Source: a virus. From it: a stretch of 64,000 nt of DNA. Below are positions 25,957 through 39,058 of this stretch, in pieces. The translations under genes were made by a program, and so were the position numbers. A model generated the notes under the pieces. It was given only the letters and a program-made list of their open reading frames with translations. It was not told the DNA's origin and searched no databases. Position 1 is the stretch's first letter, and each line of letters starts with the position of its first letter. Where the stretch lies: the IMG/VR virus record IMGVR_UViG_3300042317_000390, positions 1 to 64,000 of that record. One strand, written 5' to 3'.

Positions 25957-28437
25957 CTATGTGAAAAAACTTTCTAGCGTTGAAATATTCTCAGTTTGCC
26001 AACCTATAATTGAAGTAATAGCTTTCAGAGGGTCCATGAATGATTTCTCAAACTGTTGCTCTCTGTCGATATACTTTTCTAGGTTAAACTGTTTAGGAAG
26101 AACGTCATGGATTGCGATAACCGTTTCCTGAATAGGATTTGGTTCGATAAGATATGCGAACTTAATCTTATCACCATCCATGATAGGTTGGATTTCCTTA
26201 ACATCATGAAACTTTAGCATATTATTAAAGATTAAAGCGCCTTTAACATGAATAGGCGTTCCCTTCTTGTATATAGACGCTTTATCTGTATACTTTCCCA
26301 TATTCTTAACGCTACGAGGAAATGCAATATCCTCTAGCGGCAGATCCAAGAACTCTTGTTTGAATGTAGTTATAAACTTCTTGAGTTCATCCTCAGTCCC
26401 GTTCATAATAATCTTTAATGCTTTCTTGATGTTCTCACGACAAGCATGTGGAGTAGAAGAACGAACTGCTTCGATTCCCTGAATCTTTAACTTTGGCTCA
26501 CTATACTGTACACCTTCAACGTTCCATGCGTTGAGGATATACATCTTCTTAGCTTTCCAAATACCTTTATTAGCAATAGTTTCACGCTTCATCTTCATCT
26601 TCTGTTGATAAGCGTTCATATACTCTGCTAATTCAGCGTAACAATTATCGATGAATGGTTGAATTCTATCTTCACAGAACTTATCTAGCGACTCAACTAT
26701 GAGTAGTTGATCATCGCCGCCAATAACATCAACCACACCGGCCATACTAACATAAATCGAATCAGTATCTGAGGCGATAACATAATCAACACCCTTTGTC
26801 TTTAAAATCTTATTCATATAATCGTTAATCTTACGCTCAATCCATCTAATAGATAGCTGACCGGACATTGTAATAGATTCTGCTAGATCAAAATTAAACC
26901 AACGGAAATACTGATTACCTAGTGCGCCATAAGCTGAGTTAAGCTGAATCTTACGAGCCATCTGCATATTATGATAGCGTGAGATTAGCTTCTCGTCTTC
27001 TGAATTAGGATTATTTTCATAACGCTGTTTAGCTTCAAGCATTAACTTCTTATACTTTGTTCGGTCGTCATACATACGTTCCATCAAAGCTGGTAAAAAG
27101 CCTTGTTCGTCTTTGCGGTAAAAGCAACCGTTAGCAGCGTAAGTATAAGTGTTTTGACTTCTAAATGGAATCTTATCAAGAAGCTCTTCAATAGAAAGAG
27201 GCTCCGACGCTTTACCACAATAAGTCTCAGGACTGATATTATACTGCATAATAAGATGAGGATATAGACTGTTCAAGTCAAATGAGACTACCCAATCATT
27301 AAGTCCTAGCTTTGGTTCTTTAACGTAACCACCAACTAGGTTATCAAATCCATGATTACGCTTGGTTTGTGGTATAACGATATTTTTCTCAAGGAGATAG
27401 TTATGAATAATAATATCCCAAGGACGAATAGTTGTCATTGTATCGTTAAAGTTCACCTTGGCGTCATAGGCTAGAGCCATAATCTGCTCAATAAACTTCA
27501 ACTTATCATCAAGACGTTCTACTAGAACAACGTCATGGATGTTATATTCTAGGTAAAGCTGAAAGTTATCTCTGTAAAGATTATTAAGACTGCCATACTC
27601 AGAATAGTCAATCTTATTCTCACCAAGTTCAATACTTGCGATATAATCTAGTTTATATGATTCCTGATTACCGAATGTGAACTTACGATAGATCTGAAAG
27701 TAATCTAGAACAGAGATACCGTGAATATCGTAGCTCTTGCTCTCTTTTGATTTGAACTCTACGATCTTCTCATCTACCATCTTCCAAGGAGAAAGACGTT
27801 TAATTTCTTTTTCACCAAACAGATTTTTAATACGAGTAACAAGATAAGGAATATCGAAGAACTCAATATTCCATCCAGTGAGGATGTCCGGCATCCAGTC
27901 TTTACTCTCCCAAACCTGTAGAAACTTCTGTAGAAGATCTTCTTCATTCTTACACTTTAGATAATAGATATTTTCTGATTTAGGAGTAAAGTCCTTAACG
28001 CCAAAGCAAGCAATCTTGTTTCTTAGTTTAAGTGAGATAGCAGTGATGGGTTGATCGGCAAGTTCGATGTTAGGAAAGCCAACAACATCGTCGCCGCCGC
28101 ACTCAATGTCAAGAGTAACAATATTAATGAGGGACGGGTCATAATTGATTTCGCCTTTGAACTTATCAAAGATGTAAAGATATTGGAAAGTAGTTAGACC
28201 ATAGATCTCCATATTGGAGACATCTTTGTATCTTTCCATAAAGTCTCTAGCGTCTCTAATACCGTCAAAGTCCATGCGCTCGACGGGTTTGCCATCTAGA
28301 GTTTTATACTTACCATCTGGTTTAGGAAGAAATAGATATGGCTTATATTTGTCTACGTATTGAACTCTAGAACCTTTATCAAAACCACGAACGTAAACTT
28401 TATCACCACGAGAAAAAATATTTGTATAGAAATCCAA
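25957..28437 (-). CDS. T4 gp43-like family B DNA polymerase
   Basis: 826 aa. Exonuclease motifs: DIE at 110-112, GWNIEFFD at 188-195, and YNIHDVVL at 298-305. Polymerase motif A FDLNSLYP at 386-393, motif B KIQLNSAYG at 496-504, motif C SDTDSIYV at 556-563. Start is TTG 28437 with GGAGGT 4 bases upstream; the longer frame to ATG 28524 runs through a hairpin-rich leader and gives an unrelated N terminus. The sequence ends with a hydrophobic ESFFT like clamp-binding tails. Complete. Confidence 0.95.
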   Translation of the reverse strand: MDFYTNIFSRGDKVYVRGFDKGSRVQYVDKYKPYLFLPKPDGKYKTLDGKPVERMDFDGIRDARDFMERYKDVSNMEIYGLTTFQYLYIFDKFKGEINYDPSLINIVTLDIECGGDDVVGFPNIELADQPITAISLKLRNKIACFGVKDFTPKSENIYYLKCKNEEDLLQKFLQVWESKDWMPDILTGWNIEFFDIPYLVTRIKNLFGEKEIKRLSPWKMVDEKIVEFKSKESKSYDIHGISVLDYFQIYRKFTFGNQESYKLDYIASIELGENKIDYSEYGSLNNLYRDNFQLYLEYNIHDVVLVERLDDKLKFIEQIMALAYDAKVNFNDTMTTIRPWDIIIHNYLLEKNIVIPQTKRNHGFDNLVGGYVKEPKLGLNDWVVSFDLNSLYPHLIMQYNISPETYCGKASEPLSIEELLDKIPFRSQNTYTYAANGCFYRKDEQGFLPALMERMYDDRTKYKKLMLEAKQRYENNPNSEDEKLISRYHNMQMARKIQLNSAYGALGNQYFRWFNFDLAESITMSGQLSIRWIERKINDYMNKILKTKGVDYVIASDTDSIYVSMAGVVDVIGGDDQLLIVESLDKFCEDRIQPFIDNCYAELAEYMNAYQQKMKMKRETIANKGIWKAKKMYILNAWNVEGVQYSEPKLKIQGIEAVRSSTPHACRENIKKALKIIMNGTEDELKKFITTFKQEFLDLPLEDIAFPRSVKNMGKYTDKASIYKKGTPIHVKGALIFNNMLKFHDVKEIQPIMDGDKIKFAYLIEPNPIQETVIAIHDVLPKQFNLEKYIDREQQFEKSFMDPLKAITSIIGWQTENISTLESFFT

Positions 28438-28460
28438 AATTACCTCCAAAAACGGCGTCC

Positions 28461-28473
28461 GGTCTAAAAGACC
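28461..28473 (-). promoter_or_regulatory. Hairpin in the polymerase leader, possible translational operator
   Basis: Stem GGTCT-TTT-AGACC ends 13 bases before the GGAGGT site. T4 gp43 represses its own mRNA by binding a hairpin at its ribosome site; this hairpin is in a comparable place. Sequence-based guess only. Confidence 0.3.
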
Positions 28474-28485
28474 CACAGACCCTAT

Positions 28486-28506
28486 AATAAAAAGATGGCT
28501 CCATCT
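28486..28506 (-). terminator. Weak terminator before the polymerase gene
   Basis: On the minus strand AGATG-GAGC-CATCT followed by TTTTTATT. A second, upstream inverted repeat CTATATCT/AGATATAG (28505-28534) abuts it. It would separate the lysis-side genes from replication genes. Confidence 0.4.
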
Positions 28507-28584
28507 ATATCTTAAAGCATGCACTCAGATATAGACACCTAGTTAATTCTAGCGCTCTCATGAATTTCAGAGGAGGGAGCCGAC

Positions 28585-29322: not shown

Positions 29323-29618
29323 TCGTCCTTTTTGTCCTTGATCAAGTCCATCTGTTTCATTTTTTCTTGACCTCTAGACCAAGAAGACACGCCCAAGATA
29401 GCGCCCATAGATAAGTGGAATACGCCAGCGTTTTGTAAAGTAAGTGGTTGCCATTCTCCAAAGTTACTACTCCCAGATTGCATCGCATACCAAACATAAA
29501 AGATTGGTCCGATAATAAAGTCAAATAAACATATAGCAACATAAGCCCAAGCGAGAGTGGCACGCCAATATCTGGTATACCAACTCTCTGCGTTATATGC
29601 TTCTTGTAGCTTATCCAT
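29319..29618 (-). CDS. Holin (3TM type)
   Basis: 99 aa. Hydrophobic segments at about 17-42 (a long WRATLAWAYVAICLFDFIIGPIFYVWYAM region) and 62-80 (AGVFHLSMGAILGVSSWSR), with a Lys/Asp-rich tail. This matches the phage 3TM holin family, which makes the hole for the endolysin encoded next upstream. Confidence 0.75.
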   Translation of the reverse strand: MDKLQEAYNAESWYTRYWRATLAWAYVAICLFDFIIGPIFYVWYAMQSGSSNFGEWQPLTLQNAGVFHLSMGAILGVSSWSRGQEKMKQMDLIKDKKDE

Positions 29619-30106
29619 TAGCCTATTACAGCCGCTTGGAAGTGCATACCATCTGGGCGAGACTTCCAGTCACCACCCCAAACCCAACCTTCTTCTTTAA
29701 AGAACTTAACCATTGGGCTTTCATCAGTAAAACTTTCGGAATGATAACCTGGCTTCCATCCAAGCTGATTCTCTGGAGCGTTAATATCAATAGCTAAACC
29801 ATAAGCATGCATCGATAGGTTTCTTCCGCCACGCATAGGTCTTACCATATGTGCGCCAGAGAAAACATCTAGACCGTGATGTTTAATAGTAGCCTTATCT
29901 TTACCATAATATTCCCAAGTCTTGGTTAGAACTCTAAGTAAAGACTCAGCGCAAATCTTATTCATTGTACATCTTTTAATGACAATATCTCCCATATACA
30001 TTGTATAAGGAAGAGTTACTAGTGTTAGATTTTTGCTAAAAGAACGCTGTGTTGGATTTCCAAATTTAGCAAGACACTCAGATTGCTTTGGCCATTTATT
30101 ACTCAT
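29618..30106 (-). CDS. Endolysin, M15 peptidase (D-Ala-D-Ala carboxypeptidase/L-Ala-D-Glu type)
   Basis: 162 aa. The zinc motif SxHxxGxAxD is at residues 98-107 (SMHAYGLAID), and the second zinc His155 is in DGMHFQ; both are standard for VanY/M15 peptidases that cut peptidoglycan stem peptides. No signal peptide, so export depends on the holin. Adjacent holin supports a lysis role. Confidence 0.88.
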   Translation of the reverse strand: MSNKWPKQSECLAKFGNPTQRSFSKNLTLVTLPYTMYMGDIVIKRCTMNKICAESLLRVLTKTWEYYGKDKATIKHHGLDVFSGAHMVRPMRGGRNLSMHAYGLAIDINAPENQLGWKPGYHSESFTDESPMVKFFKEEGWVWGGDWKSRPDGMHFQAAVIG

Positions 30107-30118
30107 ATTAATACTCCA

Positions 30119-30466
30119 TTATTTCTTTTTAGGTTTCTTATCCTTATCGGGCTTTGGAAACGTTTTCATATACATATCGTTGAAAATATGCTTTTCGTGA
30201 TTACGGATAACGCGATTGATTGCAGTATCATGGTCTGCGGTGTTCGCAGAAATCTTAGATTTATTATGTGTAGATCTATAGACCTTGCCACGTAAATCTT
30301 TAGGCATAATCACTTTGCCAACTTCTTTACCCTCATGGGAAACCATAGTGATCACACCATGTGGAGTTTTGCTAATCTCAGAAGTATACCCACGACCATG
30401 ATCGTGAGCTTCCTCATCTAGCTTATCTTTTATGGCTTCTTTGATTATATCTGTAATTTTTGACAT
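30119..30466 (-). CDS. Hypothetical protein
   Basis: 115 aa, basic, with a Lys/Pro-rich tail (PKPDKDKKPKKK). Late promoter CTAAATAA 23 bases upstream. Function unknown. Confidence 0.55.
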   Translation of the reverse strand: MSKITDIIKEAIKDKLDEEAHDHGRGYTSEISKTPHGVITMVSHEGKEVGKVIMPKDLRGKVYRSTHNKSKISANTADHDTAINRVIRNHEKHIFNDMYMKTFPKPDKDKKPKKK

Positions 30467-30488: not shown

Positions 30489-30496
30489 TTATTTAG
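30489..30496 (-). promoter_or_regulatory. Late-type promoter CTAAATAA
   Basis: On the minus strand, overlapping the stop codon of the gene at 30489; 23 bases before ATG 30466, leading towards the endolysin and holin. Confidence 0.5.
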
Positions 30497-30824
30497 GTTT
30501 CCACTGGTGGCGCCTCTGTCTTTTCCAATTTTTGTGATTGAAATCAGATCTCATATAATCGTCCCAGCAAGTGGGCGTTCTGTTTCTTTTTGCTCTGTGT
30601 TTTACTTTCAGGAGCTTACATTCTTCATCATGATAAAAAGAGTCAATCTCACGAAGCTCCTGAAAGGTTCTTGGATAACGATACCATCCAAATCCACCAC
30701 GAAAACAACGAGTGCCACTGACGGGCATTCTACGAAATTTCTTGCCACCTATTGCATGATCTGGATTGTATCTTCTAATACGAATGATACCAAGTTCGTC
30801 TTCCCAACGAAACAAAGTAGTCAT
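30489..30824 (-). CDS. Conserved phage hypothetical protein
   Basis: 111 aa, Arg-rich, ending NWKRQRRHQWK. The C-terminal KxxRRHQWK with an upstream PTCWDDY block recurs in many phages of Gram-negative hosts; function unknown. A 7-bp inverted repeat (30837-30859) touches its GGAGG site. Confidence 0.65.
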   Translation of the reverse strand: MTTLFRWEDELGIIRIRRYNPDHAIGGKKFRRMPVSGTRCFRGGFGWYRYPRTFQELREIDSFYHDEECKLLKVKHRAKRNRTPTCWDDYMRSDFNHKNWKRQRRHQWKPK

Positions 30825-30890: not shown

Positions 30891-31340
30891 TTAAACGATG
30901 TTAACTTTTTTAGGTTTCTTTTCCTCTGGAATCATATTTTCCAGATAGATCTTCAAAATACCATTGAGCATTTCTGCGTTTTTCACTTCAACGCTATCGG
31001 CAAGAGTAAATTTGCGTGTGAATACACGATCCGCAATACCCTTATAGATATATTGTAGTGGATTGATTGTAGCATCAGCCATATCGTTAACTGTCATACC
31101 ACCTTTAACGACTAATACGTTATTGGCGAGTTCAATGTCAATATTTTGTTTGCCGAAACCTGCAACAGCCATTTCAATAGTATAATTGTTGTCGTCAACT
31201 TTCACGATATTATATGGAGGCCAATTTTGGGCTGCTGCTTTTGCGTAGGTATCTTGTACAGAATTCAAGGTATCTAGAACCTTATCAAAGCCTACAAGAT
31301 ATTTGTTGAAGTTGTTAAATGCAAATGGATCGTTTGTCAT
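30891..31340 (-). CDS. Small heat-shock protein, Hsp20/IbpA type
   Basis: 149 aa. N-terminal arm, then an alpha-crystallin domain (about 40-135): YNIVKVDDNNYTIEMAVAGF, VLVVKGG, VFTRKFTLAD, and LNGILKIYLEN. C-terminal IxI-like tail (VNIV). Holdase chaperone; Hsp20 is common in T4-like phages and may help virion protein or membrane protein folding. Own promoter at 31398-31427; downstream of pmoC. Confidence 0.9.
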   Translation of the reverse strand: MTNDPFAFNNFNKYLVGFDKVLDTLNSVQDTYAKAAAQNWPPYNIVKVDDNNYTIEMAVAGFGKQNIDIELANNVLVVKGGMTVNDMADATINPLQYIYKGIADRVFTRKFTLADSVEVKNAEMLNGILKIYLENMIPEEKKPKKVNIV

Positions 31341-31397
31341 AGTTATCTCCTTTTAAGCGAGAAAAATAATCAGCGTTCCAATCAGGCAACGCTTCAT

Positions 31398-31427
31398 ATT
31401 ATATAGTAATTGTGAGGGGGAAGTCAA
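31398..31427 (-). promoter_or_regulatory. Promoter for hsp20
   Basis: On the minus strand TTGACT (31422-31427), 18-base spacer, TATAAT (31398-31403). The -35 element lies in the loop of the hairpin that follows pmoC. Confidence 0.7.
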
Positions 31428-31440
31428 TACCTCCCCCTCA
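31413..31440. terminator. Hairpin between pmoC and hsp20
   Basis: Perfect 9-bp stem TGAGGGGGA/TCCCCCTCA with a 10-base loop. The T-run (ACTTTTTTTT, 31441-31450) follows it on the plus strand; on the minus strand the pmoC transcript enters through A9 and no T-run follows. It may end or stabilise pmoC mRNA, or stop antisense transcription into pmoC. Confidence 0.6.
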
Positions 31441-31449
31441 ACTTTTTTT

Positions 31450-32214
31450 TTATTCTGTTAGAAGTGCTACGCCTTCACGCCCTAGCAAAGCATGAACACG
31501 TCCTAGAATTTGGAGAACAACGCCGAACACACCAAGTGCCATCCAGCCAAAGAACACGAAGCCCCAATGCAATGGTGCTACGAATAGTTCTTCCATGAAC
31601 CAGAAAGTATGACCCCATTCGTTGAGACCAACGTTTGGAATGATCATAAATGGTCCAATAGCTACAATCAAGAATGCAAGGCTGTATCCATGTGAGAAGT
31701 ATGGAATACGGGTTCTTGCATAGAAGAAAGCACCTACTGCAATTACGCTATAGATTGGATATGACATGTAGAATTCAATGATGTGACTTGGAGTAAAGTC
31801 AGTATCACGAATAACAGTCATATGCCATGTACCATCCTGTTCAGTAAAGAAGGATGCGCCCCAATAAATGGCAGCAGCATACACAACAAGCCACTGAACA
31901 AGAACTACTAGACGACGCATTTCCTCACGAGGAGCTACGGCGTCAATGTCACGATCTCTCGTCTTCCAAAGATAACCAGCAAGTGCTAGTCCTGAGACTA
32001 ACTCAAGCGGAATCTCCGTCCAGAGAATAGACATCCAATATGTCTGAAACTCGGGTGCAAATGAGTCAAGACCAGCCCTCCAGCCGAATACCTGCTCATA
32101 GATTCTGACGATTAGATAGAATGTGTTTAGAAGCGCAAGGCCAATCCACATTCCACGGAGATCAACGACATCTGACTTTGCTGCGACTGCAGCGGTTGTA
32201 GTTACTGTACTCAT
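31450..32214 (-). CDS. pmoC: Particulate methane monooxygenase subunit C (PmoC)
   Basis: 254 aa, full length. pMMO oxidises methane to methanol in intracytoplasmic membranes; PmoC is the all-helical subunit carrying copper sites. Both ligand sets are intact: Asp127-x3-His131-x12-His144 (the D/H/H site) and Asn198-x3-His202-x13-His216 (the N/H/H site). About six hydrophobic helices are visible, joined by conserved loops such as FYLIVRIYEQVFGW and NVGLNEWGHTFWFMEELFVAP. The sequence looks like type II (Methylocystis/Methylosinus) PmoC and not AmoC. pmoA and pmoB are absent here, so the product must join host PmoAB. Base composition is visibly richer in G+C than its neighbours, consistent with transfer from the host. 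Own strong promoter at 32290-32320. Confidence 0.97.
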   Translation of the reverse strand: MSTVTTTAAVAAKSDVVDLRGMWIGLALLNTFYLIVRIYEQVFGWRAGLDSFAPEFQTYWMSILWTEIPLELVSGLALAGYLWKTRDRDIDAVAPREEMRRLVVLVQWLVVYAAAIYWGASFFTEQDGTWHMTVIRDTDFTPSHIIEFYMSYPIYSVIAVGAFFYARTRIPYFSHGYSLAFLIVAIGPFMIIPNVGLNEWGHTFWFMEELFVAPLHWGFVFFGWMALGVFGVVLQILGRVHALLGREGVALLTE

Positions 32215-32289
32215 ATATTATTCTCCATAGAGAAAAAAATCAAGTGGTCAGTTTCGCCTTTGGTGACGGTGAACCGCCACTCTTGGTGT

Positions 32290-32320
32290 TATTTATACTA
32301 TACCTCTATTGAAAAGTCAA
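32290..32320 (-). promoter_or_regulatory. pmoC promoter: sigma70-type with embedded late octamer
   Basis: On the minus strand TTGACT (32315-32320), exactly 17 bases, TATAAA (32292-32297); the -10 is part of TATAAATA (32290-32297), the T4 late octamer. An untranslated leader of about 70 bases precedes ATG 32214, containing a GC-rich hairpin (GGCGGTTCACCGTC region). Confidence 0.75.
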
Positions 32321-32325
32321 CTGGC

Positions 32326-32547
32326 TTAGTTAAGTTTTTTTCCGAAAGTTTCTTTGGCTGTGCAAAGAATATCCATATTTCTTCTGTCAAGAATGAATAT
32401 TGGAGTCATATTCGCTGCTCTATATTCTTCTGCAACTTTAAGAACAGTTCTAAGACCGCTCTCTTCGTCTTCTGGAATAAAAGAAGCTGCTGCTATAACA
32501 ACGTTTTCTGGAACTTCGACTAAATCTTGTAGGTTTAATTTTTTCAT
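32326..32547 (-). CDS. Small hypothetical protein
   Basis: 73 aa with a beta-alpha look (NVVIAAASFIPEDEESGL, PIFILDRRNMDIL). Last gene of the operon upstream of pmoC. No family recognised. Confidence 0.55.
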   Translation of the reverse strand: MKKLNLQDLVEVPENVVIAAASFIPEDEESGLRTVLKVAEEYRAANMTPIFILDRRNMDILCTAKETFGKKLN

Positions 32548-37958: not shown

Positions 37959-38115
37959 GAAAGTATCATCCCGGCGATAAGGTAACAGTCAGAGCAATTG
38001 TGCGGTATAACTGTATGTCTGGTAGATTGTTAGGGGTTGAGATTATCGGTGAAGGTAATATTGATCATGTGACAGTAGTAATACCTGTCGATCAAATAGT
38101 ATCACACGAGAAGGT
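37955..38115 (+). pseudogene. 5' part of a small phage gene, fused in frame to foreign DNA
   Basis: Starts MRKYHPGDKVTVRAIV with ATGA coupling to the preceding gene. About 53 residues of phage-like sequence (to IVSHEK) run without stop into GC-rich DNA of other origin; the frame stays open to 39058, giving a chimeric ORF of 367 codons. The original 3' end is lost or unknown. Confidence 0.6.
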
Positions 38116-38634
38116 GCCGCCAGGACAGCCTTTGGAAAGGGATGCTGCAAGTGCGTCTCGAAGACGAAGCCGACGACACCGCTGCGCTGGCGCTTCTCGC
38201 ACCCGCCGCGCACAATCCAGGAGGAACGCCATGAGCAGCATGCGCAAGCTCGAACGCGATTTCGCTCATGCCGACGCCGCTGCCGTCAACGGCTTGCTCG
38301 CGCAGCTCGGCGACGAAGACGTTATGGCACGGTTCGGCCTTGAGGCGCGGCTCGCCGACCTGCAGGCCGAGATCGCTCGGCTCGACGCCGCCGGCGACGA
38401 GCCTGTCGCGTCGGCCGCCCTGTTCTTCGGCGGTCGTCCTGTACTCGGCCAGCGGGGGATCGAGAGCGAATTCGCCGGCACCGTTATCACCAAATTTCAA
38501 GATATCGTCGCGAAGGTTCTGGCGCGCTGGGTGACACCTCGACCCTCGCCGACCCCGGCGTGGTCGATGCGCTCATCAAGGATCACGCCTCCAGCTGACG
38601 TTTGTCGACGCGCCACCTGCGTCGGCCTTGGCCT
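38112..38634. other. GC-rich bacterial DNA insert
   Basis: About 520 bases with strikingly higher G+C and GC-rich third positions, inside AT-rich phage DNA. It holds the 3' end of one bacterial gene (frame ending at TGA 38232-38234, last residues HNPGGTP) overlapping the start of a second (ATG 38231 behind AGGAGG). Edges are placed by eye from composition. No terminal repeats or transposase. Real capture of host chromosome or an assembly chimera are both possible. Confidence 0.7.
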
Positions 38635-38640
38635 TGACAG
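38231..38640 (+). pseudogene. Fragment of a bacterial gene inside the insert
   Basis: Starts MSSMRKLERDFAHADAA, then LGDEDVMARFGLEARLADLQ and FFGGRPVLGQRGIESEF...KFQDIVAKVLA, recalling an uncharacterised protein family of GC-rich alphaproteobacteria. After about residue 97 the frame degenerates (RWVTPRPSPTP), while another frame reads ALGDTSTLADPGVVDALIKD before a stop, suggesting a second junction or a frameshift near 38520. Family function unknown to me. Confidence 0.5.
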
Positions 38641-38686
38641 CCAATATGTTTACCATAATGTTAGTAGGTTTGTAAAAGTATATAAG

Positions 38687-39058
38687 ATGCACACAGCTAA
38701 AATCAAACCGCTATTCAAACCCGGTGATCGTGTTATATGGGATGATACGGCATATAACAAGAAAAGAAAAGCAACTGTTATTGCTTGCTGTGATGATGAG
38801 TATTATACTATTGAAGTGGATAGTAAGTATTCAAAATATAATACATTCAACGTCCATGTAGACAATCTTGATCCCATGCCCAAAGAAGTTAAGATAGCAG
38901 ATAAAGAATATGCTGTCAAGTGTGCTAAATGGTTTAAATCTGCTTACGCAGCGATAACAAAAGCTGGTGGTGTTCCTGAATATGTTATCGACAGTATTCC
39001 GGCTGATGTGTTAGATAATCTTATACGGAACGATCTCCACTTGGAGTATAAGAAGTGA
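38687..39058 (+). CDS. Hypothetical protein with SH3-like start
   Basis: 123 aa from ATG 38687 (MHTAKIKPLFKPGDRVIWDD, then beta-rich, then a helical C terminus). In frame with the chimeric ORF, but this ATG follows a phage-like promoter (TTGACA at 38634, TAATGT near 38656) at the right edge of the insert. Function unknown. Confidence 0.6.
   Translation: MHTAKIKPLFKPGDRVIWDDTAYNKKRKATVIACCDDEYYTIEVDSKYSKYNTFNVHVDNLDPMPKEVKIADKEYAVKCAKWFKSAYAAITKAGGVPEYVIDSIPADVLDNLIRNDLHLEYKK

Follow-up and report, generated by a model that had tools for sequence, protein, structure and literature searches.

Results

An intact pmoC among T4-like phage genes

We analysed a stretch of viral DNA of 64,000 nt (hereafter the window), which makes up positions 1 to 64,000 of the IMG/VR record IMGVR_UViG_3300042317_000390. 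The full record is a virus sequence of 168,653 bp with a G+C content of 38.6%; an end repeat of 20-399 bp was looked for in these 168,653 bp and not found, and the record may be incomplete. Central to the locus is a gene for PmoC, a subunit of particulate methane monooxygenase (pMMO), which is accompanied by the following features (window coordinates, strand, and in brackets the main support):

25957..28524, minus: gp43-like DNA polymerase (PHROGs)
29618..30106, minus: M15-type endolysin (Pfam and PHROGs)
30891..31340, minus: hsp20, small heat-shock protein (Pfam and PHROGs)
31341..31397, minus: hsp20 leader, a covarying hairpin followed by UCGCU opposite AGGAG (ROSE-like)
31398..31427, minus: hsp20 promoter, TTGACT-18-TATAAT (sigma-70 scan)
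31413..31440, minus: G+C-rich hairpin of 12 bp just past the pmoC stop, probable terminator (also holds the hsp20 -35 box)
31450..32214, minus: pmoC, 254 aa, complete, six copper ligands (ATG and stop, Pfam and PDB matches)
32212..32284, minus: pmoC leader including the ATG, beginning 5 nt past the late box (sequence conservation)
32221..32234, minus: short hairpin predicted over the Shine-Dalgarno sequence (folding)
32242..32282, minus: predicted leader hairpin, outer stem GAGTGG (32277-32282) / CCACTT (32242-32247) (folding)
32290..32297, minus: TATAAATA, putative T4-type late promoter box overlapping a sigma-70 -10 box (gp55-like factor in the genome)
32315..32320, minus: sigma-70-type -35 box TTGACT, exactly 17 nt upstream of TATAAA (spacing conserved)
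32326..32547, minus: g32326, upstream neighbour of pmoC, 73 aa (no Pfam or PHROG family)

The coordinates that the initial annotation had given for pmoC, without a strand, are exact; the gene lies on the minus strand, and the plus strand across the same interval is full of stops. Its product scores 358.5 bits on PF04896 (AmoC), for which the cut-off is 26.7 (E 2.1e-107), covering profile positions 6-244 of 245, and is matched over its whole length by solved chains, best by 3rfr_C (a PmoC, 529 bits) and also by 4phz_K and 7s4m_G. All six copper ligands are present, D127/H131/H144 and N198/H202/H216 (the CuC and CuD sites). A phmmer alignment to 1yew_C (query 3-236 to chain 32-265) implies a numbering offset of 29, so that the residues become Asp156/His160/His173 and Asn227/His231/His245 in M. 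capsulatus numbering, which are the ligand sites named in PMC7674155 and PMC9445010. Neither ligand motif is broken in any of 80 viral loci (the 80 best by similarity out of 117, with the remnants L254 and L257 discussed below falling outside this set), and both are intact in 80 of 82 bacterial ORFs, the exceptions being L162 and L124, a truncated ORF of 207 aa. These results confirm that the gene encodes an intact PmoC; the protein would then bind copper and probably assemble with PmoA and PmoB.

The surroundings are those of a phage. Around pmoC lie genes for the gp43-like DNA polymerase, the M15 endolysin, a holin and an Rz-like spanin, and PHROGs matches show that the record also encodes major head, scaffold, tail-tube, single-strand-binding, clamp and late sigma proteins (T4 gene numbers are our interpretation). 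The major head protein is nearest to that of Stenotrophomonas phage DLP6 (69%), followed by Sinorhizobium phages phiN3/phiM12 (64%). Ungapped matches to the window that span pmoC come from three further IMG/VR records, whose dataset numbers differ (11,308, 20,762 and 11,168 bp, with 9, 0 and 0 mismatches, respectively), so that the junction between pmoC and phage is not a chimera. Elsewhere in the window, whose mean G+C content is 39.5%, G+C peaks at 0.52 in 38001-39000, where an ORF at 37934-39058 matches phrog_18731, a family of unknown function, and the start regions of two small genes, 30119-30466 and 30489-30824 (both minus), fold unusually well (z -4.5 and -3.1).

Profile searches of the 168,653-bp record for PmoA (PF02461) and PmoB (PF04744) gave 0 matches, and one PmoC was found. 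The Methylocystis genome behind L096 served as positive control and yielded seven PmoC (one partial), three PmoA and three PmoB matches. The same holds for four other virus records, including a near-copy of this phage of 56 kb: each contains one PmoC and no PmoA or PmoB. In the phages collection, tblastn with PmoC gave no match. Across the viral contigs a PmoA pattern scan found no match to any pattern, and two profile scans for a PmoA or PmoB relative matched 35 and 24 stretches, none of which encodes a relative. The initial annotation had described a full-length PmoC with its six copper ligands, set among T4-like phage genes, lacking pmoA and pmoB, in a phage of an already described kind. 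On all of these points it stands; pmoC is contiguous with phage genes and has hsp20 as its neighbour.

A long-resident gene of Methylocystis type

At 45%, the G+C content of pmoC exceeds that of eight neighbours (30-41%), which the initial annotation took to point to acquisition from a type II methanotroph. The excess, however, sits mainly at codon positions 1 and 2, that is, in the protein, so that composition is no pointer to recent capture. At third positions, phage pmoC has a G+C content of 0.38-0.39, compared to 0.77-0.83 in nine Methylocystis-type pmoC genes. Synonymous divergence from eight host pmoC genes is saturated (pS 0.83-0.92; pN 0.05-0.15), and even the nearest bacterial copy, L088, shares only 75.6% of its DNA sequence with the phage gene while the proteins are 95% identical over residues 16-254. 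Phage-like third positions (0.38) and synonymous saturation thus lead us to reject the recent capture argued from G+C, and the compositional case for a type II donor falls with it.

The type II (Methylocystis-type) ancestry itself is borne out by phylogeny. The window PmoC belongs to a clade (support 100/99) with 32 bacterial rows, nearly all labelled Methylocystaceae, and is placed among Methylocystis/Methylosinus-type PmoC, hence inside methanotroph PmoC and not outside PmoC/AmoC. L088, a metagenome-assembled Methylocystis with pmoA adjoining pmoC, is the nearest bacterial row, joined at 98/99 (bootstrap not settled). Phage PmoC sequences do not form one clade on the tree (four label changes), but AU tests do not reject a single phage clade (p-AU 0.19; 0.38 for the window's larger group of 22 rows). 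As an aside, the contig L105, part of an Elusimicrobia metagenome-assembled genome, bears Methylocystaceae-like pmoC and pmoA, probably a binning error.

Among 34 distinct phage genes, dN/dS has a median of 0.053 (range 0.015-0.111; 299 pairs with usable dS, not independent of each other, computed with our own Nei-Gojobori script). The phage gene is therefore under strong purifying selection, and it is old, ameliorated and long resident, given synonymous saturation relative to the host together with phage-like third positions.

Beyond PmoC, the phage encodes a permuted tmRNA of alphaproteobacterial type (RF04321, RF01849) at L082:3840-4221, equivalent to about 67,840-68,221 of the record, with the tag ANDNDASFGVYALVA. 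PmoC type and tmRNA type, rather than a spacer match or a culture, are the grounds on which we consider the host to be probably an alphaproteobacterial, Methylocystis-like methanotroph.

pmoC is a cassette exchanged between phages

For comparison we used 56 alpha-type viral loci (L001-L055 and L073), many of which are repeats of one population, and 47 loci collected by their hsp20 protein (L284-L330). hsp20 lies downstream of pmoC in 34 of the 56, within about 0.3 kb in 32 and about 0.7 kb away in L036 and L044. Among the 47 hsp20 loci, 14 are empty sites, where g32326 stands directly before hsp20 with no pmoC between them; three others repeat the window region, and the remaining 30 yielded neither pmoC nor an adjoining g32326. 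The starts of g32326 and hsp20 are about 230-330 nt apart at empty sites versus 1,207 nt in the window, which puts the insert at about 0.9 kb and makes it comprise promoter, leader, pmoC and hairpin.

Comparison of the window with L008 gives a pS of 0.20 for pmoC but of 0.48-0.78 for six other genes (hsp20, endolysin, polymerase and g32326 are at 0.71-0.78), with identity rising within about 120 nt before the pmoC start and falling off at about the stop codon. When the genes compared are ranked by pS in each of 13 relatives, pmoC comes lowest in nine, is tied in L021 and is not the lowest in L024, L036 and L041; in 12 relatives with pmoC at the same site, PmoC is 86-98% identical compared to 59-71% for DNA polymerase. 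The same promoter, leader and pmoC occur at another place in the genome of L018, followed by a different hairpin. The unit thus moves between phages. We conclude that pmoC is a monocistronic cassette, lodged between two genes that adjoin each other in pmoC-less relatives and exchanged between phages, an arrangement that is apparently undescribed; homologous recombination would be the likely means of exchange.

The cassette can also decay. At L254:1961-2034 and L257:815-888 an intact pmoC leader is followed by an in-frame pmoC remnant of 52 codons with zero ligands, the two contigs being 99.7% alike over 1.4 kb around it. These sequences had been considered as a different PmoC clade (67%), a candidate we ruled out in favour of a deletion remnant. 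Broken in two contigs and missing from the site in 14 relatives, pmoC is not essential.

A putative fused early and late promoter

The boxes upstream of pmoC keep a fixed distance. At a spacing of exactly 17 nt, TTGAC followed by T or A is found in 17 of the 20 distinct pmoC leaders; one more has TTGATT instead, and L020 and L028 are without; TTGAC at 17 nt precedes none of the 19 other gene-proximal TATAAATA sites of the genome. The octamer itself shows no excess in the window (5 versus 6.6 expected), nor a clear one in the record (27 versus 23 for the reversed pattern). Its placement is more telling: 20 of the 27 sites are followed, after 10-110 nt, by a gene on the same strand (genes called by our own script), compared to 18% for pooled permuted 8-mers, the highest single one of which reaches 43%. 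Apart from pmoC, 16 of the 19 genes behind such a site were scanned. They include structural and lysis genes (major head, scaffold, tail tube, tail fibre, spanin), but also the non-structural ssb, RegA-like repressor and homing endonuclease genes, plus unknown ones. A gp55-like late sigma factor (phrog_234, E 6.7e-52) and a gp45-like protein (phrog_223, E 1.8e-65) are encoded in the genome; gp55 had first been looked for in a DLP6 region, with no result.

A sigma-70 scan of the region found no excess of promoter-like sites (15 versus 17.7) and did not list the pmoC promoter because its -10 box is TATAAA. Going by its sequence, we interpret this promoter as a fusion of an early (sigma-70) and a late (gp55-type) promoter, with two corresponding times of transcription, an arrangement that is apparently undescribed. 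The T4 late box has been described, and overlapping early/late promoters have been proposed in RB49 and in the cyanophages S-PM2 and Syn9 (PMC2984593). Those phages resemble the present one in having both kinds of promoter before one gene and in using TATAAATA-type late promoters. They differ in that the proposals for RB49 and S-PM2 concern homologues of T4 middle genes, whereas here a metabolic gene is involved, and in that the two boxes overlap here with a constant spacing that different phages have conserved. For three larger phages of Lake Rotsee, expression of pmoC went together with that of structural genes and was interpreted as late (PMC7674155); the TATAAATA box may provide a sequence basis for late expression in the smaller alpha type. 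Other phage lineages (L026, L034, L039, L048, L049 and L053) have different leaders before pmoC, several with G+C-rich inverted repeats of their own, so that the wiring of pmoC seems to have evolved more than once.

A conserved leader before phage pmoC

The 5' end of the leader, AAGAGTGG, can pair with CCACTTGAT, which lies just ahead of the ribosome site; these two segments hardly differ between leaders, in contrast to the variable stretch between them. The leader is found in 35 of the 56 alpha-type loci, and the 21 leaderless ones include other phage lineages as well as contigs that start inside the gene (L044, L054). In the collected loci a leader pattern matched 60 times before pmoC, 58 of them with TATAAATA, versus 86 times elsewhere, 0 of them with TATAAATA. 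Note that several of the 60 are one contig counted twice; the number of distinct leaders is 20. A covariance model built from these 20 was run on 69 sources, namely the genome cut into seven pieces, viral loci of alpha type without the leader (16) and of gamma type (16), and 30 bacterial loci. It recovered the window copy alone, which is a training sequence, with the next match at E 0.22; the leader was thus not found in any of the 30 bacterial loci. In Rfam nothing reached gathering for the pmoC leader, and two matches lay far below it (E 0.11 and 0.47).

Folding gives a median z of -3.6 for the 20 leaders (0 in L028, -1.6 in L032) compared to -0.4 across other gene starts in the window (44 of them), a few of which fold as low. 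The predicted pairing holds in 87.7% of cells versus 29-47% when slid. The covariation score equals that of shuffles, with one pair altered on both sides, and covariation does not decide the fold because the stem is nearly invariant. For the window leader there are two competing predicted folds, one of which also masks the start codon. At 20 degrees this masking fold is the minimum in four of the 20 leaders (window/L001, L009, L020, L032), and we therefore do not claim a temperature switch.

By sequence, then, the hairpin leader is conserved, apparently undescribed and so far met only before phage pmoC. Its simplest function, as suggested by the predicted folds, would be to stabilize the mRNA and to place a weak lid over the ribosome site; regulation of PmoC output is possible. 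One may go further and see in pmoC an exchangeable module whose leader is a new regulatory RNA, present before phage pmoC only and setting PmoC output after infection. We regard this extension as speculative and somewhat doubtful. If it is true, the leader may open or close the ribosome site in response to temperature, a ligand, or a phage or host protein.

The downstream hairpin and the hsp20 leader

Of 32 distinct loci, 29 have a G+C-rich hairpin after the pmoC stop (the others being L024, L037, and L035, where the contig ends), at a distance of 15 nt or less in 22 of the 29; any such hairpin arises in 2% of mononucleotide shuffles (31 loci). It is probably a terminator and would end the pmoC transcript. 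In most of 18 pmoC-less loci the -10-like region of hsp20 and the hsp20 leader are kept.

The hsp20 leader begins with a hairpin that has a bulged G and a CC-GG cap. Covariation here is pronounced (score 0.81 versus 0.22, reached in 0 of 500 shuffles; 89 cells altered on both sides versus 27 in shuffles), based on 33 aligned sequences out of 35, L028 having been left out because the hairpin is absent and L317 because it is like L321. UCGCU or UUGCU precedes AGGAG in 32 of the 33, L043 being the exception. Rfam ROSE_3 (RF02523) matches weakly (E 0.0011, 25.7 bits versus a gathering threshold of 43) and, as this is below gathering, we file the element as ROSE-like only. Folded in silico, its Shine-Dalgarno accessibility shows a small rise, from 0.11 to 0.22, between 5 and 50 degrees. 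A model of the element, R2, has matches in 507 records; in the four tried (P-SSM4, S-SM2, Pelagibacter phage Mosig and Pseudomonas phage MIJ3) the match lies just before hsp20.

ROSE-like RNA thermometers occur at small heat-shock genes (PMC3669281), and they share with the hsp20 leader a stable first hairpin followed by UCGCU/UUGCU facing the Shine-Dalgarno sequence. The present element differs in being phage-borne and in scoring below gathering, and it concerns hsp20, not pmoC. We consider it a candidate phage-borne ROSE-like thermometer; our literature searches found no paper on a ROSE-like leader of phage hsp20.

Discussion

What might phage PmoC do?

We think it likely that pmoC is an auxiliary metabolic gene of a T4-like methanotroph phage, carried as a self-contained cassette that keeps host pMMO running. 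The cassette, inserted between g32326 and hsp20, would consist of the early and late promoter, the folded leader, pmoC and the terminator hairpin, and would be swapped between phages by recombination. PmoC made from it during infection would take the place of PmoC in pMMO alongside host PmoA and PmoB, so that methane oxidation and energy supply would go on while the phage replicates. There is an analogy in the hosts: Methylocystis has PmoC genes without a nearby PmoA motif (L095, L107, L115), which presumably supply pMMO likewise. These stand-alone copies resemble phage pmoC in lacking an adjoining pmoA but, unlike it, they are chromosomal and have a third-position G+C of about 0.8 (L095, L107). 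The proposed mechanism fits selection on the protein, the intact ligands, the early/late promoter and the absence of the other subunits; translation, assembly into host pMMO and a benefit to the phage are steps we infer. The RNA data from Lake Rotsee count against it, in that the three smaller phages there (159-168 kb) were probably not active (PMC7674155), as do the loss or absence of pmoC in relatives, the lack of an excess of sigma-70-like or TATAAATA sites, and the occurrence of TATAAATA before non-structural genes.

There are a number of other scenarios that might account for the gene. PmoC might be the pMMO subunit that is lost or damaged fastest, so that the phage resupplies this part and no other. 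The model is the proposed replacement of D1 by cyanophage psbA. Crystal structures of detergent-solubilised pMMO did not resolve one conserved region of PmoC (PMC9445010), pmoC is in surplus in a host genome (seven PmoC versus three PmoA and three PmoB), and an early plus late promoter would give a steady supply. We regard this scenario as a tentative refinement of the auxiliary role of pmoC, which could hold alongside it.

A less probable scenario is host takeover, in which phage PmoC displaces host PmoC to alter or slow pMMO, for example to spare oxygen or reductant. The phage has just one of the subunits, its PmoC is variable at the N- and C-termini, these termini are said to diverge from host PmoC, and hosts were generally eliminated once phages appeared (PMC7674155). 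A poison subunit would need no intact copper sites, however, and yet all of the 80 viral loci most similar to this one (out of 117) retain the ligand motifs, in a protein that is strongly constrained. Finally, that pmoC is a recently captured host gene or an assembly chimera, a transient passenger without a role, is very improbable and already largely refuted: G+C above that of the neighbours and the many phage scaffolds that end near pmoC owing to similar host copies (PMC7674155) may suggest it, but three other records run contiguously through pmoC, synonymous sites are saturated relative to the host with a protein 95% identical to that of L088 (residues 16-254), dN/dS is 0.05, and place and leader are conserved in many phages.

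Relation to known pmoC-phages

In the sections available, the survey of Zhong et al. 2024 (PMC10904782) counts 25 viral pmoC genes with donors in Methylobacter, Methylomagnum and Methylocystis; it is a survey of gene presence, and these sections do not analyse the cassette. Further viral pmoC has been reported (PMC9875498). Chen et al. 2020 (PMC7674155) described 22 pmoC-phages, with hsp20 beside pmoC in six, without pmoA or pmoB, and proposed a role in methane oxidation; pmoC is gained or lost there between the near relatives PDSYNTPWS_1, BML_3 and LM_6. Their phages are myoviruses related to cyanophages with a stand-alone pmoC as here, and the present record comes near their smaller alpha-type phages (about 161-174 kb) in size and G+C. 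Their CB_5 has lost a central pmoC region, which resembles the L254/L257 remnant. The main text of that paper, supplements apart, has zero mention of promoter, terminator, untranslated or upstream, and treats neither the empty site nor the leader. Our literature searches, with mainly open-access coverage, found no paper on a pmoC promoter, leader, cassette or empty site. The kind of phage pmoC is thus known while its regulatory anatomy seems to be undescribed.

Several implications follow. Synonymous saturation is a warning that predicting hosts from PmoC identity means relying on a strongly constrained protein, and that composition is unusable for calling phage pmoC genes recent. The promoter predicts both early and late expression of pmoC, and promoter and leader mark phage-derived pmoC transcripts as opposed to host transcripts in RNA data. 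Natural empty sites and deletion remnants make the effect of the cassette testable by comparing near relatives. Viral pmoC could, ultimately, change the release of methane from lakes.
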